Program-made: the position numbers and the translations under genes
The notes under the pieces: model-generated
The model's database searches: none
Seen by the model: only the letters and a program-made list of their open reading frames with translations
Told to the model about the DNA's origin: nothing
Part shown: positions 17,404 through 28,568 of the stretch, one piece after another
Position numbering within the stretch: position 1 is the first letter of the stretch
Layout: the number at the start of each line of letters is the position of its first letter
IMG/VR virus record: IMGVR_UViG_3300025327_000097
Span: 1-36,560 of that record
Length of the DNA: 36,560 nucleotides
From: a virus
Reading direction: 5' to 3' (one strand)

Positions 17404-17423
17404 ATCTCCGCCTACGCGGAGAT
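17404..17423 (-). promoter_or_regulatory. hairpin holding the capsid gene stop codon
   Basis: Perfect 8-bp inverted repeat ATCTCCGC / GCGGAGAT with a 4-base loop GTAG; the loop contains the capsid gene stop TAG. No T-run follows, so it is not a classical bacterial terminator. Confidence 0.45.
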
Positions 17424-18602
17424 CGACCTGATCTTGGCGCTCGTGTTGAACCTCGTCACGTAGATCTGCTCGCACGTCAGGAAGATCGCCTGCGTGTCGA
17501 ACTTCTGCCGGATCACGGGGTTGTCCACTTCCACGTACAGGGTCGGGAACCCTACGCGAATGTGGATGTTCCTCATGTCAGGCAGGTAGATCCGGTCGAT
17601 GCCGTCCACCGCGACGTTCTTGTCCACGACAAACGGCCTCATCTGGTACGCCCGTGTGGTGTAGCTGATGTCCCTGCCGGGGTGCAGAGCCGTCTGGCTG
17701 AGCCCCTGGTAGTCCAGCTTCGCCTGCACCTGCGACAGGTCGAACCGCCCATGCGCCTTCAGCTCGTCGTAGACAGCCTGGCGCGTGTCGCGGCCCGTCA
17801 GCCAGACCTGCGCGCTCGCGACTCCGCCATCGTCTTCTGTGAAGTTGATGGCCTTGTCGAGCGCCTTGGTCTGGAACGGCAGGTCGGTTCCAAACGTGAG
17901 TTTGGAACCATCCGGTCGGATGACGTGCGCGTCGTACGTCGTGGCGCTGTCGCGGTCGATTGCACCCTCGTACACGTCAAAGTGCCCGGTTCCAACCGCC
18001 GCAATCGCGTCTTCCTCGGCATCCGAGGAATACAAGCGGTCGATGGTTTCCATGCCCTTGCCCGTCCCGTTCGCGTCGTTCTTGGCGTCCGTGGTGTTGT
18101 TGGTGTCCAGCGTGACCGATTCTGACTCGGCATTCTTGAGCAGCTCTTCGTTGAGTAGCTGCACGTGGACGTCGCGCTCCGCCGCCTTCTTCCACGACCA
18201 CAGGTCGAGCCCGTCGTCGTGCTGGCTGCGGAAGCCCGCGTCCAGCGTCAGGTCGAACGGCGTGTGCAAGAACCCAGGAATGGTGCTGAGCTCATCGGGG
18301 CTGAGGTCGACAACAGCTCCGATGGAGCCGGGGTCTGCGCCGCCGTAACCCTTGGTCGGGGGGTTGGTCGTGAGCACGCGGAAACCGCTGCGCTCCCACA
18401 TCTCCTTCTTGAAGATGGCGTGGCCGTTCGCTTCGCGGTTCACGTGGTCGTAGACCACGGCGCCGTACGTCGGGTTGATGGCCCCGCTGTGTCCGGCGAC
18501 GTTGCCCGTCTTGGCAAAGTAGCCCTTCAAGAACGGCACGTAGTGCTGTTGGTTGTAGGCCCACTCCACCATCTCTCCGATGTTGGTGATTAATGGCGGC
18601 AT
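17412..18602 (-). CDS. major capsid protein (HK97 fold)
   Basis: 396 residues; ATG 18602 follows GGAGGGAG. It is the first globular protein after portal, MuF protein, protease and scaffold-like genes, the canonical capsid position. The N-terminal arm (PPLITNIGEMVEWAYNQQ) leads to a body with YDHVNREANGHAIFKKEMW and later strands and helices, including PFQTKALDKAINF and the C-terminal IHIRVGFPTLYVEV. Gly/Asp-rich loops around residue 175-200 may be an insertion. No protease cleavage site was identified in the sequence. The HK97 fold is inferred from context and the family rule that such viruses use it. Confidence 0.8.
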   Translation of the reverse strand: MPPLITNIGEMVEWAYNQQHYVPFLKGYFAKTGNVAGHSGAINPTYGAVVYDHVNREANGHAIFKKEMWERSGFRVLTTNPPTKGYGGADPGSIGAVVDLSPDELSTIPGFLHTPFDLTLDAGFRSQHDDGLDLWSWKKAAERDVHVQLLNEELLKNAESESVTLDTNNTTDAKNDANGTGKGMETIDRLYSSDAEEDAIAAVGTGHFDVYEGAIDRDSATTYDAHVIRPDGSKLTFGTDLPFQTKALDKAINFTEDDGGVASAQVWLTGRDTRQAVYDELKAHGRFDLSQVQAKLDYQGLSQTALHPGRDISYTTRAYQMRPFVVDKNVAVDGIDRIYLPDMRNIHIRVGFPTLYVEVDNPVIRQKFDTQAIFLTCEQIYVTRFNTSAKIRSISA

Positions 18603-19358
18603 CTAACTCCCTCCGTTGAACATCTTGTCGATGAAGCGGAACGTCTCGTAGGACTGATCCTGCGAGGGTGGGATCCACCCGTCCGCGCCCGGCCCGGTCT
18701 GCTTCCGGTCGAACTCGATTGCTTTCTCGACGGCGAGCCTCGGGTTCTTGTGGTAGCTCATCTGCTCCTGCGTGAACCCAGCCGGGTACGGCGTCATGGC
18801 CAAGACCGCCTCGGGGATGGTCTTCTTGACCAGTTCCTCCTGGGCTTTCTTGATCTCTTCTGCCTGCACCTTGAGCTTGTCCTCCACGGCCTTCTGGATC
18901 TTCTCTTCGGCCTTGCCGAAGAACTCGTCCAGGCTCTTCTTCGTGAAGGAGCCCTCCGTCCCGAGCGTGAATCCGCCTGCACTGCCCTTGGTCGACGCCT
19001 GCGGGCTTGGCGTGTTTGGCGCCTTGCCCATCTCAGCGTTGTCCGCAGAGCCCAGGTTGCCGCTCTCAGTCCCCTGTGCCGGAGGCACTGCCTTGATCGC
19101 GATGCCGCGCCGCTTCAGGTCGGTGAATACCGACTTGAGCATCGCGTCTCGCTGGTGCAGGGCCTTCAACACTTCGTCTCGCTCCGCCGCCGCCTTCTCC
19201 GCAAGGGTGACGGCCTTCTCGACCAAACCCTCGTAGTGCCTCAGCCTGTCGGCGGACTTCTTCTCCGAAGACTCGTCAGAGGACTCTTTCTTCTCTTCTT
19301 TGTCCTCCTCCTTCTCCTCGGAGGTCTTCTTGTCCTCCTTCTTCTCTTCGTCTGCCAC
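18603..19358 (-). CDS. scaffolding protein candidate
   Basis: 251 residues; GTG 19358 directly follows the previous stop TAA. The first 37 residues are almost only Lys, Glu, Asp and Ser, then coiled-coil helices (about 38-85), a disordered Pro/Ser/Gly linker (90-130) and a second coiled coil (about 140-185, KAEEKIQKAVEDKLKVQAEE). The C-terminal part (YKNPRLAVEKAIEFDRK) may dock to the capsid protein. Charged coiled-coil proteins directly before the capsid gene are typical phage scaffolds, which fill the procapsid and leave or are digested. The family was not identified. Confidence 0.65.
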   Translation of the reverse strand: MADEEKKEDKKTSEEKEEDKEEKKESSDESSEKKSADRLRHYEGLVEKAVTLAEKAAAERDEVLKALHQRDAMLKSVFTDLKRRGIAIKAVPPAQGTESGNLGSADNAEMGKAPNTPSPQASTKGSAGGFTLGTEGSFTKKSLDEFFGKAEEKIQKAVEDKLKVQAEEIKKAQEELVKKTIPEAVLAMTPYPAGFTQEQMSYHKNPRLAVEKAIEFDRKQTGPGADGWIPPSQDQSYETFRFIDKMFNGGS

Positions 19359-21233
19359 TTACTTCGCCTCCTTCGTGATGTGATGAGAGTATTCTTGCTG
19401 GAACAGGTAGAAATCATGGGGTGTCAGCGCACCCTCGTGGATGACTCCATGCTCCAGCGCCTTCTGCATGACTTCGAAATACATCACGGCGTCATCAAAC
19501 ATCTTCTGCATCTCGAAGCAACCAGAGCAGTAGCCGTTGTATTCAGTCCAGTATGACTTGCCGAGCTTGCTGTAGGCAATCCTGTGCGCCGCCTCGTCGC
19601 CGCTCTCGGCCCACCCAAAGTCGCTCGGCTTGTCCTTGAACCTCTGCTTGACGTGAGAGAGCAGGCGCTCGAACTTCTTGCCGTGGTTGTGGCCTGGGCC
19701 TGGTTTGGTGATGAGGTCTTCGTCTTCGATGACTTGCTCACGGCATTCGTCGCACTGGCAGTCCGGCGCGTGGCGCCGAGGCCCCTTCTGCTGCTCCGAC
19801 GAGTTAGCCTGTGCAGTGCTGGCCATCTGACCAGCTACGTTGCCAGCCATCTCGATGGGCTTCTTGATGGCTTGACCGATGCCGCCCACAGCCGCAGCTA
19901 TCTGCTTCTCCTTCAGAGAAACAAGTGAACCGGCAGCGCCAAGCGCCTGGTGTGCAGCCGCTTGAGCGCCTGCGCCTGACGTTGTCGTTGGAGTTCCAGC
20001 CCCAATCAGCGTGTGGCCGATGTCCTGAGCGCCTTCACCCATGCGTTCAGCTGGAGTTTTCTTGCGCTCGTCCTCGCGCTTCGCAGTTGGGCCATCCGGC
20101 CCTGGCTCCTTCAGCTTGTCCTTTTCGAGAAACGCGAGACGTTCCTCGAATGAACGCTGGAAGAACCCGCGTGGCTGCTCGCCCCGGCTCGATTCTTCGT
20201 TGGCGCTGTCCTTTCCCCGGTCGCTGCCCTCGGGGTACTCGTAGTAAACCTCGTCTTCCTTGGGCTTCTTCATCGGGCCTTTGTCCGAGTGCGCGACACG
20301 GATCGTCGGGCCCTTCGGGTTGTTGGGCGTGCCGAGGGGGAACTTGATCTCTTCGCCGTCCTTGATCGGGTGCGCTTTCATCTTGCGTCGACCCTGTGCC
20401 AAAACACGATCAACGTACTCAGGACTTCGCTCACCGTGACCATAAGGAGAACGTTCTTCGGCTGTGAGGTTGGAAAGATTTCCGACTGGAACAGTCGACG
20501 CCGCGTCGGAATAGCCAGTTCCGAGATGATCTCCTGCTTCCGGTTTACGCTTTGGGCCTTTCTGTTCCATCTGTCCGCCCCGTGGCTCATACACAACCCA
20601 CGCGCCCTGTTCGTTGATCTCGTTTTCGAACCCGGCATCGCTGAGCCTGCCCATCGCGTCTTCCTCAAGTTCGTGCGCGAACTCAGTATCGCCGGACTCT
20701 TGCATCTTGGCGTACTCGGCCTGGAGGTCGGACACGTCCACGCCGTAGGATTCGGCTTCGGCCAGGATGTCCTCAGTGCGTTCACCGCCCATCTGGAGGT
20801 CGAGGACGGTGGATGGTTCGCGTTCTTCTTCATCCGTGTCCGGCGGAAAGTCGCTTTCTACGAATCCGCCTGCGAGTGGATCATCTTCGGGGAAATCCAA
20901 CTCCGATTCGTCCCCGGTTTGCTCGGCCAGGTAGTCCTCGACGGAGCGACCTTGACCCGATGGGCGCCCTCCGCCTCCACGGACGTTGTCGAAAGGATCG
21001 CGTTGGGTGCCATAGGGCTGACCACGGGAGTCCGTTTCCTTCTCTTCGTCTGGAACCGACGTCACGGCTCCCCTCGACCCACCGCCCCCCTGGAGCAGCG
21101 ACTGCGCCGCAGGCCCGTAGACGGTTTCGCCTGTCCTCATGTTCTTGGCGCCCATGCCTCCACGGGTGCCCATGTGAGGAACCCATTCGCCGGTCTTCTG
21201 TAGGCTGTGCAACCACTCCTGTTCCCAACTCAT
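19359..21233 (-). CDS. disordered head-associated protein with Cys motifs
   Basis: 624 residues from ATG 21233 (ATGA overlap with the protease stop). Most of the protein is low-complexity and charged, with repeated KGPKR-like basic steps. It shares two motifs with the protease gene: RGFFQRSFEERLAFLEK (compare FGQRHLTRSFDERLEAL) and EWVPHMGTRGGMGAKNMRTG (compare MWTPRSGGGGARNIETG). A Gly/Ala-rich region around 425-480 may be membrane-active (AAAVGGIGQAIKKPIEMAG). Cysteines at about 492, 494, 497 and 569, 572 suggest a metal site, followed by a globular helical C-terminus. Possible roles are internal scaffold, cargo or ejection protein; none is proved. Confidence 0.6.
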   Translation of the reverse strand: MSWEQEWLHSLQKTGEWVPHMGTRGGMGAKNMRTGETVYGPAAQSLLQGGGGSRGAVTSVPDEEKETDSRGQPYGTQRDPFDNVRGGGGRPSGQGRSVEDYLAEQTGDESELDFPEDDPLAGGFVESDFPPDTDEEEREPSTVLDLQMGGERTEDILAEAESYGVDVSDLQAEYAKMQESGDTEFAHELEEDAMGRLSDAGFENEINEQGAWVVYEPRGGQMEQKGPKRKPEAGDHLGTGYSDAASTVPVGNLSNLTAEERSPYGHGERSPEYVDRVLAQGRRKMKAHPIKDGEEIKFPLGTPNNPKGPTIRVAHSDKGPMKKPKEDEVYYEYPEGSDRGKDSANEESSRGEQPRGFFQRSFEERLAFLEKDKLKEPGPDGPTAKREDERKKTPAERMGEGAQDIGHTLIGAGTPTTTSGAGAQAAAHQALGAAGSLVSLKEKQIAAAVGGIGQAIKKPIEMAGNVAGQMASTAQANSSEQQKGPRRHAPDCQCDECREQVIEDEDLITKPGPGHNHGKKFERLLSHVKQRFKDKPSDFGWAESGDEAAHRIAYSKLGKSYWTEYNGYCSGCFEMQKMFDDAVMYFEVMQKALEHGVIHEGALTPHDFYLFQQEYSHHITKEAK

Positions 21234-24232
21234 GTCAAAGCCTCCAGGCGCTCGTCAAAAGAACGGGTGAGATGGCGCTGACCGAACTGTTCCGCTTGTG
21301 GATCACGGCCTTGAACGAGTTTTCCACCACGATTGCCAGGTGGGATGTAACCACCAGCCTGCATCGAATCGCGGTCGGCAAGGTACTCATGAATTTGATC
21401 GAGGTTGACACCCTCGACTCTGGCGTCTGTGCTTCCATCGTCCCACGGAGTGTTGCCCACTCGATCTGACCGAGAACGCGATGATGGGTCGTCCTGACCC
21501 GCGTAAGAGGGGCGATAGGGCCCCTTGACCTTGTTTCCACCCATCGGGCGGAAGTCGAACTCCATCGCGTCCGGCCATTGCGAATACTCCATTCCCGCAG
21601 GCACCATCAGCCTTGGGTCGCGCTTTGGCTGTTGCTGGGGTTGGCTCCTCGGGGTCAGCGCACGCGCCGCATCGCGGACAGGGCCCTTGCGCTGTGGGGG
21701 ATACATCTCGTCCTCAACGTCACCCATTGTGAAGTCCTCACCTTGGAGTTCGTCAATCGCTTGGTCAGCACCGGGCTCGCCCAGAGCCTCAAAGGGTTGT
21801 TCCATAGGTTGTGCTTGCTCCATCTCCGTCGCTTCAGCCGCGACGTCCATCAGTTCGCTGACGACGAACTGCGCCAGGTTCGGGTTGCCGCGCGCCCAAG
21901 GCGTGTTGAGGACTGCCTGCTTGATTTCCTCCGCCGCAGTGGGGTCGATCTCGTAGAGGTCGAGGGACTTCTCCAGCACCCGAAGCCGCGCCTCAAAACC
22001 CATCGCCTTGCTCTTGCAGCACCGCACGCCGTGGCCACAGCCGCAGTCGAGTGACCGTTGTAGGTGGCGCTGGCGGAACTCATCCAGAGCAGGAAAAGCC
22101 GCGTTGGAATCCATGACGGCGCCGAGTGGCACGGCGCCTTGTCCGGTTTCGCCAAGCACGAAAGACGGTTCCTTGCCAGCCTCCCTCGCCGCACGGTGTG
22201 TTGCTTCGGGGAGGAGCATTCCGCCACGGTCATAAATGTCCCACATCTCGTCACCAAGGCCAGTTGCCCTGTTGAACTGGATGTCTGAACGCGGCTCGGA
22301 CTGCTCAGGCTGACTGGCGAATCTTATCCAATCCTTTGGGTTTGTCGGATCGGGAGCCGCCTTCCTCGGCCACCCGTGATACACTCTCCCACGCCGCTCG
22401 ATGGCCTCCATCTCATCCGGGTCGACGCCCATGCGCTCTTCGCCCGTCTCTATGTTGCGCGCTCCGCCGCCGCCTGAGCGAGGCGTCCACATCTGCTGTC
22501 GTTTCCGACGTGAAGGCCCCTTCTGCTGCCGCATCGTGTTAATCTTCATGCCGCCGCCGCGTCCGCCGAGGCGTCCGCGCTCAAGCGGGTTGCTCTGGAG
22601 CTGATCCATAGAACCAGCTGGCATTTCTTCCGGGTGGCGCGCGGAGCCGCTGACCGGGTCGATACGAGTCCTCCACGCCGCGCGCTCGCGCAAACCCGTC
22701 TTATTGGGGATGGGCGTGTGCGACCCCACCTGTTGGAGGTCTCCCACGGGGCGTCCTTTTTTGTCTCGGCCCTGCGCCATTGTTGGGTATTCAGCGCCCT
22801 CCACCGCGCCGCGAGCTCGTTCCTGCTGCTCGTAAGGAGTGTAGGCCGCGCGCCCGAACTTGTCCGGGTCACGTTCTGAAACCCAGGACGGGCCGCGCTT
22901 TTCGAGGAACGCGAGGCGGGCTTCGGGTGACAACATCTTCTCTCCGCGTCGTCTCGCCCATTTGGGCACACTTCCTTCGGCGTGAGGTGCTTCCAGTCGT
23001 TCCCAATCTCGCGCCGAGGCAGGGACTGGTTCGTAGCCCAGGCGTTCGAAGTGTCGGATCATGGATTCTTGCTTCGGAGAAACTTGGCGCCGCTTAGGCC
23101 CGCGCGTCAAGTATCGCTGGCGGAAGTTCTGAGTGCCACGAGCCGCATCAACGTTCGTTCTTCCAGCAGAAGTCCAATTAGTGTCGAGTGGACGAGCCAT
23201 CTCATCAGCCACGTTCCTATTTGTTGCGACGGAGTGTCCGGGCTGCTCGGGTCGATTGTATTCAGGATACCTCTCGATAGGGATGTTCTCATCCGGATGC
23301 GCAAACAAGTCAAGAGTATCTTTGACCCGACGAGCCTCGTCGTCATCATCCGGTCGGTTCGGTGGCACCATTGCCTTCTCCAGCATCGCGATCCTCTCGT
23401 CCGCTGACCGTTTCATGTAATCCTGCCTGAACTGACGAACGGTTTGATTCTTGTTGTCTTCGCCTTCGATGACGCCGATTGGCCCTGGCGGGTTTGCGAA
23501 ACTGTAGTCGGAATATTCTGCTTCGGATGGGTGCCTCCACTGATCATAAGCGGAGTCCGCTTCCTCGTCTGGAGGATACAAACCCTCTTCGATTGGATTC
23601 AGAATGTTGGGGTCTGGCGGGCCTTCCGTGTGGTTCGACCTGTATCCGACGACGATATCTTCCGGTCGGACGACCCGGACTTTCTCCAACCTGTCCTCGA
23701 ACGACTTAGCCACAACCTTGAATGCGGCGCCCTGGTTCATCCCCGTTTTGCAAACCGTTACAGCAGACAAATCCACCGCGTCGATTTGATTCACGATCTT
23801 GCAGGTGAACGAGTCGCACACGTTGGTCTTGTTTTCCACGCGCGACTGCCCAGAGATCGAGAACGAGTTCAATTCGCCTTTCTCAATTTCCGCCCTGACC
23901 TTGAGGCTGAAGTCCGTGTCGTCGTAAATCTTGCCGACGACGAACAGCATCTCGTCGCCTGGCTTCACGCCGCCTTTGGCGAGGTGCGGGTACTCGGCCA
24001 TGTCCTGTTCGACCACTGGTCGAACAGAAGTTGCATACGGCCCCCAGCCCTTCAGAATTTCTCCAACGAGGATGTCCCCGTGCTGGAGGCTTAGCCTCCC
24101 ACGAAGAAGGAGTTGAGGCAGGCCAGCCTTGAGAGCGGCGCCTGTAATCAAGTCGCCCTCTCTGTCAACGACGGCCACGCTTGCGGGGCCAGCGATGATG
24201 AAGTCCCTGCCGGATTTGGATATGAGTCGCAG
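21230..24232 (-). CDS. prohead protease (XkdF/S78-like) with long repetitive tail
   Basis: 1000 residues if started at CTG 24232; the first conventional codon is GTG 24178, which would cut off the coding-like RLISKSGRDFIIAGPAS. The N-terminal domain (to about residue 175) has features of phage prohead proteases: AVVDREGDLITG, His in LSLQHGDILVGE (about 51) and the likely catalytic Ser in LNSFSISGQ (about 125). The remaining 800 residues are disordered and charged and hold recurrent units such as FRQRHLQRS and ERIAMLEK, many KGP(K/S)R steps, a Cys cluster CGCGHGVRCC, and an end FGQRHLTRSFDERLEAL. Proteases of this type cut scaffold and capsid proteins; fusing protease to a long scaffold-like tail is unusual. 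A TATA-like box precedes it. Confidence 0.75.
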   Translation of the reverse strand: MRLISKSGRDFIIAGPASVAVVDREGDLITGAALKAGLPQLLLRGRLSLQHGDILVGEILKGWGPYATSVRPVVEQDMAEYPHLAKGGVKPGDEMLFVVGKIYDDTDFSLKVRAEIEKGELNSFSISGQSRVENKTNVCDSFTCKIVNQIDAVDLSAVTVCKTGMNQGAAFKVVAKSFEDRLEKVRVVRPEDIVVGYRSNHTEGPPDPNILNPIEEGLYPPDEEADSAYDQWRHPSEAEYSDYSFANPPGPIGVIEGEDNKNQTVRQFRQDYMKRSADERIAMLEKAMVPPNRPDDDDEARRVKDTLDLFAHPDENIPIERYPEYNRPEQPGHSVATNRNVADEMARPLDTNWTSAGRTNVDAARGTQNFRQRYLTRGPKRRQVSPKQESMIRHFERLGYEPVPASARDWERLEAPHAEGSVPKWARRRGEKMLSPEARLAFLEKRGPSWVSERDPDKFGRAAYTPYEQQERARGAVEGAEYPTMAQGRDKKGRPVGDLQQVGSHTPIPNKTGLRERAAWRTRIDPVSGSARHPEEMPAGSMDQLQSNPLERGRLGGRGGGMKINTMRQQKGPSRRKRQQMWTPRSGGGGARNIETGEERMGVDPDEMEAIERRGRVYHGWPRKAAPDPTNPKDWIRFASQPEQSEPRSDIQFNRATGLGDEMWDIYDRGGMLLPEATHRAAREAGKEPSFVLGETGQGAVPLGAVMDSNAAFPALDEFRQRHLQRSLDCGCGHGVRCCKSKAMGFEARLRVLEKSLDLYEIDPTAAEEIKQAVLNTPWARGNPNLAQFVVSELMDVAAEATEMEQAQPMEQPFEALGEPGADQAIDELQGEDFTMGDVEDEMYPPQRKGPVRDAARALTPRSQPQQQPKRDPRLMVPAGMEYSQWPDAMEFDFRPMGGNKVKGPYRPSYAGQDDPSSRSRSDRVGNTPWDDGSTDARVEGVNLDQIHEYLADRDSMQAGGYIPPGNRGGKLVQGRDPQAEQFGQRHLTRSFDERLEALT

Positions 24233-24263
24233 TGCTGATCGAGAGCATGGGGTGGGAAGAACC

Positions 24264-24273
24264 CATATTTAAG
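24264..24273 (-). promoter_or_regulatory. TATA-like promoter before the protease gene
   Basis: Minus-strand CTTAAATATG in one of the few non-coding gaps (24233-24282). At archaeal spacing, transcription would start near 24242, about 10 bases before the proposed CTG start at 24232. Archaeal promoter logic is applied by inference. Confidence 0.45.
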
Positions 24274-24282
24274 GTATGGCGC

Positions 24283-24363
24283 TTACTTCTGCTTCTTCCT
24301 TGAATGCTGGAGCCAGTTCCAATCTTCTGGCTTCTTGCGGAAGTCAAAGCGCTTCTTGGTCAT
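24283..24363 (-). CDS. 26-residue basic peptide, tentative
   Basis: ATG 24363 is preceded by AGGAGG three bases upstream and overlaps the end of the MuF fusion gene by 20 bases, as do other junctions here. The peptide is very basic (KKRFDFRKKPEDWN and RKKQK end) with two Trp. It is too short to judge by itself. It fills the space between the fusion gene and the promoter gap, and if translated it may bind nucleic acid or be a leader peptide. The same DNA could also simply be untranslated 3' sequence. Confidence 0.35.
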   Translation of the reverse strand: MTKKRFDFRKKPEDWNWLQHSRKKQK

Positions 24364-26899
24364 CTTCTTCCTCCTGTCGTCCAATCTTCTCGACGCGGAA
24401 CCCAGACAACCGTTCCACGACCGCGCTCCACGCTGTGTCCGCAATCGCTTGCTCGTCATGAAGTTCCGCTGAACCGAACAAAAAATCATCCCGTTTATAA
24501 TACGCCGATCCGTGCGGCGTGGCCACAATGTATTCGGCTTCGCCGCCGTAGAGAGATTCGTCAGCATAGAACGCGCCGACAACCGAAGAGACCGGGATGC
24601 TGGCATTTATCATTACGCCGTGCTCCTCTCCGCCACCCTCTTCCATGAAATTTTTCGCGACCCGAGGTGATGCAGTCCACGACTCAAGCGTCCGATGATC
24701 GATGAGCGCGTCTTCTTCATCTCCTTTGGCGATATGCTTCCCGATGGCTTTTCCAGTGGCGCCCTTGATCCCACGGTAGACCGTGATCGTGTCCGTCTCT
24801 GGATTGTACGTCGGGTCGATCTTCCGCACCAGCCCCTGCACGCGCTGGACGGACGCCTCGATATCGGCAAACGTTTCCATGCTCGGATTCGTCCTCTTCC
24901 CGACGATGACCGTCTCGGGGATGTGCGGGTTCTGAAACTTCAACGCGGCCCAGGCCCAAAGCGGAAACGCCCTTGGCGTCTCGTTGCTGTGCGCCCATTC
25001 TTTGTAGAGGTTGTGGGTTTTGTCCTCAACGATGTGACGCTCGTCCTTCCATTTGTTCGGGCCGCTGGACGGCGTGACCTTATCCATGAACGTCTCCCAG
25101 GAGTACGTGTAACCTTTCTTGTTGGCGTCGTTAGCAACCTCCTCAGCAGCCTCGATCATATCCTCTTTGGTCTGTTCAGGAGTACGCTCAGCATCTAATC
25201 CTCCACGGATTTGATACTCCACTGCCATTTGAAGCCCGTCGTTGAACTTATCCCTGAACGACTCAAGGTCAGTCTCGATCCGCGTCTTCACGGCGGTCTC
25301 AAGCTCGCTCTTTGGTTTCTTCTGCTCGGGTGTGCGTGGGGGCGGAGCGATAGGGCCCCGCATATCTGCTGTTATCCTGAACTCGGGATCATACGCTGAA
25401 AGTATTGAGCTTTCACCCACCTGTTTCGCGGGCACCGGGTGTCCAGTCTGCGCCGCATGGCCCGCGAGTCCTTGAGGACTCGCGAAACAATGGCCGGGGA
25501 TGTCGCAGTAGCGTCCCACCCCGTGCGACAACTTCATCAAGTAGTCAGTATCCGGCTCCGACAGCCGTAGCGCCCTCAGCAACGTCCTCGCTCTGTAGGG
25601 GTGCAACATCATGACGTCGCCCTTGTCGGGGTCGCGATCCCACTCAAACCCAAGGTGCTGATAGAACTTCTCGGCCTCGTCGGTCGGTTCGAGGATGATC
25701 GGCACGTCGCGGTCGACGGATTCTTGCGCGACCTGCTGCATCAGCTTCTTGCCGTGACCCTTGCCACGGTCAGCGCCCAAGTGGTTGATGTGGATCGCGC
25801 GCCCGTGCTTCGGGTGCTGAACCTCGTTCCACGACATAGCGCCCGCGATCTTATCGCCTTCTTCGGACGTGATCAGATTTGACTCGCCCGAGAAACCTTC
25901 GCGGAGTGCGCGACGGCCCATGACCTGTGGGAGGTTGGGCACATTGCCGCCTTCAGGAGACTGTTGCCACGCGCCGACCTGCTCTTCGATCTCCTGCGGG
26001 TACTTCCGACCTTTTCGAATCTCCTTGCTGACAGTGCGCCAGAAGCCGTGACGACAATTCGGGTGGCTGAGAGGGAAACCACCATCTCGCGTGGGGTTCC
26101 ACTTTGGCGACCCTCCGAATGTCGTGTCCGTGGACACGGCAATGACAATTCGCTTGAGTTCCTCAAGCGACACGCCGTCCTCGGTGCGCCGGATGATCTC
26201 CGTGCAGATTTTGCACTGTTTCTTGTCCTTCAAGTCACGACCAAAACGATAGAGCAGCTTCTCGTCAGTCTCGCGCTCGAACTCCTCATAGGCGTTCATG
26301 CGAGAAGTTTCCCACACCTTCCATGTTTCCGTCCGGGCGATCCTCTCCAGGGACTTGCGCCGCTCCCAACCCACCTCGTCAATCATGCGGAGGACAATCG
26401 GCCCCGACGCTGGCGCCCCAGCGCGGAAGGCTTCAGCCACGATTTCGTTGAAGCGCGTGGAAATCGTTTTACTGAATCCCGCAAATGATTCTGCCACGCC
26501 CTTCCCCTCAATCAGGGTCTTGAGCGCGCCCTCATGCACGCCACCCATCTTGAACGGATAAGCCAGGTCGCGGCCGACCTGCTTCAAACCCTTCTCGTAT
26601 GCCTTCCGCGCTTGCTCGCGGAAGCCAGCAACGAGTTCTTCGCCTATCCGCTCGGCAGCGCGGTTAAGCGCCAGCTCCAGTTCTTCCTTGGTGGGTTCGC
26701 GCTTGCCCGCGACCTTCTCGATTTCTTCTTCGAGGATTCGCTTTAGCAAAGCGGACATCTTATCCTGCTCGGACGCACGCCCTTTGAACATGACGCGATT
26801 CGCGTCAGCCCACTCTATAAACAGCGCGTTGCGCTCGATGTCGTCGCCTTTGAAGTCCATCCAACGCCTGTAAGCGTTGAGCGAATCAACGACGCTCAT
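24344..26899 (-). CDS. MuF head protein fused to GNAT, zinc finger and ADP-ribosyltransferase
   Basis: 851 residues from ATG 26899, which overlaps the portal end by 14 bases. Residues 1-305 are a MuF / SPP1 gp7-type minor head protein, with the IARTETWKVWETSRM helix (about 187-201), C229-x2-C232 and the HPNCRH end motif (279-284). About 325-435 is a GNAT acetyltransferase with the acetyl-CoA loop R378-GKGHG and the C-terminal EAEKFYQHLGFEWD. C465, C471, H481 and H487 form a C2H2-like finger. From about 525 a helical region leads to an R-S-E class ADP-ribosyltransferase: R709 in VYRG, S740-WTAS, and E787-AE. MuF-linked toxins are known in temperate phages; two enzyme domains in one such protein is striking. 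The enzymes' targets are unknown. Confidence 0.85.
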   Translation of the reverse strand: MSVVDSLNAYRRWMDFKGDDIERNALFIEWADANRVMFKGRASEQDKMSALLKRILEEEIEKVAGKREPTKEELELALNRAAERIGEELVAGFREQARKAYEKGLKQVGRDLAYPFKMGGVHEGALKTLIEGKGVAESFAGFSKTISTRFNEIVAEAFRAGAPASGPIVLRMIDEVGWERRKSLERIARTETWKVWETSRMNAYEEFERETDEKLLYRFGRDLKDKKQCKICTEIIRRTEDGVSLEELKRIVIAVSTDTTFGGSPKWNPTRDGGFPLSHPNCRHGFWRTVSKEIRKGRKYPQEIEEQVGAWQQSPEGGNVPNLPQVMGRRALREGFSGESNLITSEEGDKIAGAMSWNEVQHPKHGRAIHINHLGADRGKGHGKKLMQQVAQESVDRDVPIILEPTDEAEKFYQHLGFEWDRDPDKGDVMMLHPYRARTLLRALRLSEPDTDYLMKLSHGVGRYCDIPGHCFASPQGLAGHAAQTGHPVPAKQVGESSILSAYDPEFRITADMRGPIAPPPRTPEQKKPKSELETAVKTRIETDLESFRDKFNDGLQMAVEYQIRGGLDAERTPEQTKEDMIEAAEEVANDANKKGYTYSWETFMDKVTPSSGPNKWKDERHIVEDKTHNLYKEWAHSNETPRAFPLWAWAALKFQNPHIPETVIVGKRTNPSMETFADIEASVQRVQGLVRKIDPTYNPETDTITVYRGIKGATGKAIGKHIAKGDEEDALIDHRTLESWTASPRVAKNFMEEGGGEEHGVMINASIPVSSVVGAFYADESLYGGEAEYIVATPHGSAYYKRDDFLFGSAELHDEQAIADTAWSAVVERLSGFRVEKIGRQEEEDDQEAL

Positions 26900-28568
26900 A
26901 GGGCGGCTCCTCTTCTTCGGGCGGAGGTTCCTCGCCAGGCGGAGGGCCTCCGCCTCCACCGCCTGGAGGCATTCCACCCATCATGCCTGGCATCATCATG
27001 GGCTGAGGCTCATCTGGGAACTCGAAGTGCCCTTCGTTGTCCCGCGCAATCGCGGGGAAGCCCAACATCTGCATCATTTGGGCGTATTGGGCTTCGGCAA
27101 GTTTCACTTGCCATTCCATCATCTCGTTCTTCTCCTCCACCTCCTTGAGCTTGAGTTTCCAACCCTTCTTGCCCATGATCTCCAGCAGGCGTGGGAAGAA
27201 GAAGTCATTGAAGTGCGCCTGGCCGATCTCGGCGGCAAGCTGCGTGACTTGCCACTGTGTCGGCCCCTGGTTCTGCAGGCCAGCCGCGTCCGTGATGCCG
27301 TGGATGATTGGGGCCACGCCCCAATTGGCCGCGATGCGCTTCGTGAAGTACGCGTGCGTCTCCATCATCCCCAGCTCCGGCGGAGGCTTGGAAAGTTCAG
27401 TGACCGTGACGGGAACTCGACCGCCGCTGTCTCCTGGGTCGTAGGCGATCTTGGGCATATAGGTGCCGCCAGCGGTAACGTTGCGGTCTTCCGCTTCTTT
27501 CAGCACAGGCCTGATCTGATCTGCGGCGCGCGTCGGGATCCACAAGATGGCGCGGGGGATTCGCCCTTCTTCGTACCATCTACGTACGTAGGTTTCCATG
27601 AAGACCTGGGTGCGCGCGATGTTGTAGGACGCGATGCCTGGCGGCAAGCCATAAAGGTACGACTGCGAATACTTCGAGCCGTGGATGACTTCGCCTGGCG
27701 TGTCGATGTCCGGCCCGATGAAAAACTCGACTGGCGTGTCCTTCGAGCCGATCTCGTGGCTGACGTACCAGACGTCGCGCAGCTTCATGCCGCACCGCCC
27801 GTTCTCGTCGCTGTAGTCGCAGAAGCCCGGCTGTTCGCGGGCGGCCCCTCCTACAATGCCGGACGATCCAGCGCCGCCGACTCCAGCCTGGATGTAGTTG
27901 TAGGGGCGCAGGCGAATCGAAGTGGGCCGATGACGCAAACAAATGAAGTAACGCCCGCCGGGGATGTGGGTGCGCGGATCCTGCACGGCTTTGAAATTGC
28001 GCGGGTCTGCGATGAACATCTCCTTGACCTTGCGCTCTTCGATCAAACCCGTCTCAGGGTTCAACTTGTATTCTTGAAGGACAACCGCGAAGCTGTCGTC
28101 GGCAATTTCGAGGTGGTCGTTGTAAATCTTCAGCGCGTCGATCAGGCTGTGGCCGTTGCGGTCGACCTGCTTGAAAAACGCTTCGCATTCTTCGATGACG
28201 TTCTCGTCGGGGTCGGTGTACCAGACGAGGCCGATGCCCTGCGGGTCACCCATGCCGCATTTCTCGCAAACGTCCGGCTCGGATTCAGCATCATGCTTGT
28301 GCCCACAGGCGTTGCACTGCCTGCTGTATTCCGGCTCCCACTCGTAGCCCTTCTTGAAAAAGTAGTCGCGCAGAGTCTGAATGGACTTGCGGACACTGGA
28401 ATTCTCCATCATCATCAGGTAGAGGTCGTCCAAGTCGACTTCGTGGCGCCAGGGCCTGGTGCGATCCATGACTTCCGGGCGGTCGCTGTAAGAGCTGTAG
28501 TAGTACGGCGCCAGCGGGCGCGAGGCGCTCGCCCCGGTCAATCCAAACTTAATGAGTGGTCTTGCCAT
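26886..28568 (-). CDS. portal protein with zinc ribbon
   Basis: 560 residues; ATG 28568 follows CAGGTGG. It is a phage portal of the type with YNDHLEIADDSFAVVLQ in the wing and IHGSKYSQSYLYGLPPG before the long stem helix. MMETHAYFTKRIAANWGVAP and the C-terminal helices are typical. An insertion at residues 85-104 (C85-x2-C88, C101-x2-C104) forms a zinc ribbon. The last 60 residues are Met/Gly/Pro/Glu-rich and disordered (PPGGGGGGPPPGEE). It forms the dodecameric DNA gate at the capsid vertex, with terminase upstream and the MuF gene downstream in the standard order. Confidence 0.85.
   Translation of the reverse strand: MARPLIKFGLTGASASRPLAPYYYSSYSDRPEVMDRTRPWRHEVDLDDLYLMMMENSSVRKSIQTLRDYFFKKGYEWEPEYSRQCNACGHKHDAESEPDVCEKCGMGDPQGIGLVWYTDPDENVIEECEAFFKQVDRNGHSLIDALKIYNDHLEIADDSFAVVLQEYKLNPETGLIEERKVKEMFIADPRNFKAVQDPRTHIPGGRYFICLRHRPTSIRLRPYNYIQAGVGGAGSSGIVGGAAREQPGFCDYSDENGRCGMKLRDVWYVSHEIGSKDTPVEFFIGPDIDTPGEVIHGSKYSQSYLYGLPPGIASYNIARTQVFMETYVRRWYEEGRIPRAILWIPTRAADQIRPVLKEAEDRNVTAGGTYMPKIAYDPGDSGGRVPVTVTELSKPPPELGMMETHAYFTKRIAANWGVAPIIHGITDAAGLQNQGPTQWQVTQLAAEIGQAHFNDFFFPRLLEIMGKKGWKLKLKEVEEKNEMMEWQVKLAEAQYAQMMQMLGFPAIARDNEGHFEFPDEPQPMMMPGMMGGMPPGGGGGGPPPGEEPPPEEEEPPYERR

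Follow-up and report, generated by a model that had tools for sequence, protein, structure and literature searches.

Why should a prohead protease carry 823 residues beyond its catalytic domain, in which the same short motifs return several times, and why should those motifs continue into the next gene? The question is raised by the virus contig IMGVR_UViG_3300025327_000097, whose 36,560 bases are analysed here as a whole (the window). The original prediction for this locus had proposed that the motifs are either docking sites to the inner capsid wall or repeated cleavage sites for the attached protease, the latter making the protein a self-processing protease–scaffold. The reading we prefer, with a probability of roughly 0.45, merges the two: the products of the two genes, P1 and P2, would be a protease–scaffold that processes itself, each kind of role, cutting step and helical handle, being combined in its repeats.

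The head module lies on the minus strand at 17.4–32.9 kb – all window features below are on this strand – in the order TerL, portal, MuF, P1, P2, scaffold-like gene and capsid protein, so that P1 sits inside the head genes, as a prohead protease should. The window contains a homologous protease, capsid protein and portal of the Druskaviridae type, and for all three the closest counterparts are in Druskaviridae (HVTV-1, HCTV-1 and HCTV-5, which infect haloarchaea); because of this similarity the host of this tailed virus is most likely archaeal. No provirus turned up in genome contigs scanned with alignments of the protease and of the capsid protein. The MuF-like minor head protein (24344–26977) includes a GNAT acetyltransferase domain (PF13673, E=2e-8). 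By eye, its C-terminus also shows an ADP-ribosyltransferase-like region (YRG, ESWTAS, GGEAEYIV) and a C2H2-like stretch; in Druskaviridae, a zeta-toxin protein is found in the neighbourhood corresponding to this gene.

P1 (21230–24232; 999 residues) matches the head maturation protease family phrog_23555 (E=1e-36), and its protease domain (23702–24229) is 44–48% identical to the Druskaviridae proteases; twenty-odd protease relatives were collected. In an AlphaFold model built on a 17-sequence alignment, this N-terminal domain is modelled confidently, and residues 1–186 superpose on T4 gp21 with Z=10.8, which places them in the protease fold; many herpesvirus assemblins score Z 6–9, above unrelated entries. 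Across the 17 sequences His50 is invariant, as are S124, I125 and G127 of the SFSISG serine region, with S126 nearly so, making His50 and the SFSISG serine conserved candidate catalytic residues. The beginning of the gene is unusual in that no in-frame ATG is present: a CTG at 24232 would yield the full domain and a GTG at 24178 a truncated one, and an ATG-started frame in another phase (24178–24270) overlaps the start. The near-identical contig L002 has the same ATG-less arrangement, which may reflect a non-ATG start, a frameshift or a sequence error common to both contigs. As for length, which had been called unusual for a prohead protease, P1 is indeed extreme, but extensions as such are usual in the family, where ORFs run to about 400–830 aa; in haloarchaeal members, protease and acidic extension (roughly 280–500 aa) share one ORF, and the capsid gene comes next.

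The most prominent motif is a two-part repeat, consisting of part A, FRQR(H/Y)L(T/Q)RS, and part B, S(F/A)(D/E)(E/A)RLAxLEK. Part A occurs four times, in P1 only, and part B five times, four in P1 and one in P2; each part A of P1 precedes a part B, with gaps of 0, 56, 17 and 0 residues. Unit 1 (23375–23431, in predicted helix 260–285) is contiguous and reads FRQDYMKR/SADERIAMLEK, the slash marking, here and below, a proposed cut. Unit 2 is divided into FRQRYLTRG (23099–23125, helix 360–375) and SPEARLAFLEK (22898–22930, helix 435–444), and unit 3 into FRQRHLQR/S (22052–22078, helix 713–727) and GFEARLRVLEK followed by K/SLDLYEID (21968–22000, helix 734–759). Unit 4, FGQRHLTR/SFDERLEALT (21233–21286, helix 977–998), forms the very C-terminus of P1, whereas unit 5, FFQR/SFEERLAFLEK (20121–20165), lies in P2 and has its part A reduced to the remnant FFQR.

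The motif is thus present in both genes at every place where it had been predicted, and its copies stand far above shuffled proteins: leave-one-out profiles score them at 15–31 bits, against a best score of about 10 bits on average, and 15.9 at most, in 20 shuffled window proteomes. The case rests on these profiles, since single best pairs of copies are mostly within chance. Other ORFs of the window contain no comparable match. Recent duplication of DNA is ruled out by a codon comparison among copies: at identical residues, codons agree in 22 of 59 cases for part B (22.3 predicted from codon usage) and in 17 of 33 for part A (13.0 predicted). Because synonymous codons are saturated in this way, the copies are, as far as codons can tell, old or convergent peptide motifs under selection. 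The original prediction had named beforehand a lack of conservation in homologues as the outcome that would speak against it, and on this point it fared badly, as the exact 19-residue motif is in no relative found.

Two further elements of the prediction proved real. The tryptophan-containing unit W.P..G..GG.GA.N..TGE (W-box) has two copies, beyond chance, one in P1 (WTPRSGGGGARNIETGEERMG, 22427–22489) and one in P2 (WVPHMGTRGGMGAKNMRTGETVYGPAAQSLL, 21093–21185), the latter with a single counterpart in the relative L034, introduced below. The KGP steps number seven as [KR]GPx[KR], with 0.2 expected and no shuffle of 2000 reaching this count. Similar RGP stretches are seen in the capsid N-arms of four relatives (L003, L004, L009 and L047), e.g. 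TQARGPKGENPGKLRK/ADG, and, in several relatives, behind the protease domain. Separately, a Cys-rich insert, DCGCGHGVRCC (22016–22048), separates the two parts of unit 3 and has DCGCG in common with L034, where DCGCGCGGEC is found behind the protease; P2 carries DCQCDEC just upstream of its C-terminal domain. These Cys-rich elements are possibly metal-binding.

The relation between P1 and P2 is clarified by L034 (IMGVR_UViG_3300045003_000239, a 61-kb contig), in which a single 829-aa ORF encodes the protease together with a P2-like tail. P2 (19359–21233; 624 aa) is collinear with the extension of this protein, and the ATGA at 21230–21233, where the P1 stop overlaps the P2 start, marks the split point relative to L034. 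In Smith–Waterman comparisons with the L034 tail, the N-terminal 60 aa of P2, with the W-box, reach z = 4.6, the middle block z = 12.7 and the C-terminal domain (KPGPGH...C..C, 19446–19706), which shares 45% identity with the C-terminal end of the L034 protein, z = 21; the 7-mer GAQAAAH is also common to both. Downstream, the order is likewise the same, with a scaffold-like gene (248 aa in L034) followed by the major capsid gene (both at L034:10403–12393), and the two capsid proteins are 49% identical. For the P1 extension, on the other hand, the comparison with L034 detects no similarity (z = 0.5), and the distance from protease to W-box is about 830 residues in the window vs about 100 in L034. 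No unit is found at the L034 site aligned with the P2 copy, and exact A or B units, like the 820-aa extension of P1, are absent from all relatives found.

Because L034 encodes the protease and a P2-like tail as one ORF, P1 and P2 resemble a single protease–scaffold protein that has been enlarged and divided. The simplest history, as read from sequence comparison, would involve a single protease–tail gene, split in the lineage of the window (or else fused in that of L034), and, in the window, a large insertion or expansion that set protease and W-box far apart. Pfam, PHROGs, NCBIfam and PDB sequences, queried with the extension, P2 and individual motifs, gave nothing meaningful, tblastn of P2 and single motifs against phages gave no real match, and single-protein scans of viral contigs with P2 or the P1 extension returned only the near-identical contig (L002/L058), or nothing.

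That the repeats lie in disordered sequence, as originally supposed, agrees with the AlphaFold model: pLDDT is below 50 in 622 of the 999 P1 residues and in most of those beyond residue about 180, and the repeat units are among the few helices predicted in the extension, i.e. helical islands in disorder. The best-scored part of the extension is a small helical region at residues 765–805 (21815–21937). In units 1 and 4, one continuous predicted helix runs through A, B and the proposed scissile bond. Part B has a high helix propensity and an ordinary hydrophobic moment; a strongly amphipathic docking helix was considered and is unsupported. The model of the P2 C-terminal domain is mostly helical and of low confidence.

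At the centre of the repeat is a [KR]S-Φ-[DE] step, where Φ is A, F, L, M, I or V. This pattern was chosen after inspecting the repeats, and only five of its nine sites in P1, P2 and the scaffold-like protein lie outside the repeat units, one of them directly adjacent; nine compares with 0.73 expected and was reached in 0 of 5000 shuffles, whereas the rest of the window has three vs 2.5 expected, the chance level. Directly behind the protease domain lies a candidate release site, K/SFEDRLEKV (AK/SFED, 23678–23707), at whose position L034 has VK/SADK. P2 has GQGR/SVEDYLAE (20922–20948), and the scaffold-like protein KK/SADRL (K at 19257–19259) and KK/SLDEF (K at 18936–18938). The R/SFDE of unit 4 is 10 residues from the C-terminus of P1. 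Two of the five B copies are without an adjacent [KR]S.

A looser form of the same signature is found among relatives. In their extensions, Lys is followed by Ser or Ala 86 times vs 44.5 expected (z 7.2); Lys–Ser is enriched 2.4-fold vs 1.1-fold in other proteins of the same loci, and Lys–Ala 1.7-fold vs 1.5-fold. In most relatives, K/[SAG] immediately precedes the protease domain, often follows it closely as well, and recurs 21–27 residues from the C-terminus of the extension. An apparent avoidance of Lys–Pro in the halovirus extensions vanished in a wider set (12 vs 15.1) and was dropped. The idea of repeated cleavage sites in a self-processing protease–scaffold is indirectly supported by the [KR]S core, which recurs just after the protease domain and within the scaffold, and by Lys–Ser/Ala/Gly steps at the relatives' protease flanks, extension tail and N-arm end, though not by the exact motif, which the relatives found lack. 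Docking to the inner capsid wall would be compatible with repeated helical islands in a disordered chain, and the two ideas may both apply. Precedents exist: HK97 is cleaved between K103 and S104 (PMC10275583), and the SPN3US protease prefers Ser at P1', makes several cuts inside propeptides and trims off the one at its own C-terminus, although the E-124 site in gp54 is cut after Glu (PMC10052503). That prohead proteases of head-tailed viruses can carry a scaffold has already been noted (PMC4284463).

The N-arm end just mentioned belongs to the capsid protein. In 14 Druskaviridae-type capsid proteins, the N-arms keep LMK/S, R/[GSA] and K/A-[DN]-G; the window's major capsid protein (17412–18602) is without the 60–75-aa N-arm of its relatives; in the alignment its first residue falls one column past the Lys of the K/A step (K/ADG) that they conserve. 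Basic columns in the N-arm are conserved in 3/5 vs 2/15 of the positions contrasted, a difference that is not significant (p=0.07). Between P2 and the capsid gene, the window has instead the scaffold-like gene (18603–19358; 251 aa), whose product matches the L034 protein in the same place at z=5.2. Scaffold function seems to have moved in the window from the capsid N-arm to a separate gene.

On the reading we prefer, P1 and P2 would be a split, enlarged prohead protease–scaffold (core) protein with an N-terminal domain of the assemblin/T4 gp21 type, the long disordered remainder, along with P2 and the 251-aa scaffold, filling the prohead. Each repeat would present a short helix B, usually behind a basic helix A, the two meeting at a [KR]/S-hydrophobic/Ala-[DE] step. 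The helices could serve as handles anchoring the core protein to shell or scaffold. Cuts by the protease at the [KR]/S steps, in its own chain and in neighbouring proteins, would free it behind its domain and sever the handles, so that the core could be cleared before DNA packaging. The protease fold, the one-ORF relative L034, the nine [KR]S sites and the Lys-small signature of relatives are consistent with this, as are units that are predicted to be helical in a disordered chain and are conserved despite saturated synonymous codons. The continuous helix predicted over the proposed scissile bond in units 1 and 4 is unfavourable to cleavage, conservation over about 19 residues exceeds what a cleavage site needs, and part B is not a classical amphipathic docking helix. 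It is because conservation spans 19 residues that a binding role is suggested as well. A stronger version, in which the protease carries several cut-and-hold cassettes, each a helical handle with a scissile [KR]/S step of its own, and a single round of self-processing frees the whole core from the shell at many places, is a doubtful extension of this reading.

The same observations can be divided differently. If A and B were multivalent helical motifs binding the capsid inner wall, portal or scaffold, with the [KR]S step merely part of the binding motif, one would expect helical islands in disorder, including one at the very C-terminus, 19-residue conservation among copies with saturated synonymous sites, two B copies without [KR]S and, in units 1 and 4, an unbroken helix over the proposed cut; this account is nonetheless unlikely, as [KR]S-x-[DE] also turns up outside full units, namely after the protease domain, within P2 (SVED) and within the scaffold, and L034 is without exact units though its capsid and scaffold are homologous. 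Those isolated steps would instead suit a scheme without docking in which every unit serves the protease as an extended recognition sequence: a step lies behind the protease domain and recurs in all three core proteins, and the Lys-small signature of relatives and HK97 K103/S104 point the same way. We think this improbable, given B copies that lack [KR]S, the helix across the proposed site and conserved positions far in excess of what prohead protease sites usually need. Cleavage might also be incidental, with basic A and more acidic B helices pairing within or between chains as cross-links that condense the core protein; A always precedes B in P1, at a variable gap, but hardly anything of part A is left in the P2 copy, and such pairing strikes us as a long shot. 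Finally, the extension might simply drift, its copies being functionless, decaying remains of internal duplications. The extension's lack of detectable similarity to L034 and the absence of exact units from every relative found would fit, yet residues are conserved while synonymous codons are saturated and the units coincide with predicted helices, and we give this view almost no credence.

If the combined reading is right, maturation cuts after Lys/Arg and before Ser/Ala/Gly are predicted across Druskaviridae-type viruses, where they are so far unmapped, and the window would show a protease–scaffold protein that has grown around one repeated short element and then been split into two genes. 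It would also bear on how, within the lineage of HK97 and the herpesviruses, scaffold function shifts among the protease, the capsid N-arm and genes set apart for it.

Among known systems, the closest set comprises the Druskaviridae proteases – HVTV-1 gp119, HCTV-1 gp111 and HCTV-5 gp118 – and their IMG/VR relatives. Like the window, Druskaviridae have the protease just upstream of the capsid gene, a long charged C-terminal extension and Lys-small steps at the domain flanks and near the C-terminus; unlike it, they have one 624–665-aa ORF directly before a capsid protein with its own N-arm. In the window the ORF is split into a pair of 999 and 624 aa, the scaffold is encoded separately and the capsid protein lacks the N-arm. 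A/B units, W-box and KGP steps were not found in Druskaviridae or the IMG/VR relatives of this set. L034 shares with the window the protease domain, W-box, GAQAAAH, middle block, KPGPGH C-terminal domain, K/SAD behind the protease domain, DCGCG element and separate scaffold gene, and differs in its single ORF, one W-box and lack of exact A or B units. From these comparisons, P1/P2 would be an enlarged version of protease–scaffold fusions that relatives also have.

Further afield, the T4 protease (gp21) cuts after Glu. The Lys/Ser site of HK97 and the multiple propeptide cuts and C-terminal propeptide removal of SPN3US (gp245) resemble what is proposed for P1, although the SPN3US protease cuts after Glu, unlike the window's proposed Lys/Arg sites. 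We know of no comparable repeat-bearing extension in the HK97, T4 or SPN3US prohead proteases. Herpesvirus pUL26 cleaves itself at a release site and near its C-terminus, and in PrV a Ser stands behind the presumed M-site (PMC4498786). The pUL26/pUL26.5 system has the same protease fold as P1, by model comparison, with the protease N-terminal to the scaffold; P1 likewise fuses its protease to a long disordered extension, which would be a scaffold by analogy with pUL26, and on sequence its K/SFED behind the domain and R/SFDE near the C-terminus may be compared with the release and maturation sites. Herpesvirus sites have Ala before the cut, unlike the Lys/Arg of the window, and herpesviruses express the scaffold from an overlapping in-frame gene with the same 3' end, an arrangement absent from the window, where it is a separate downstream gene. 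They also have one capsid-binding tail, vs several units here, so that the cut-and-hold cassettes of P1, if real, would be a multivalent form of the herpesvirus design with its single release and maturation sites.
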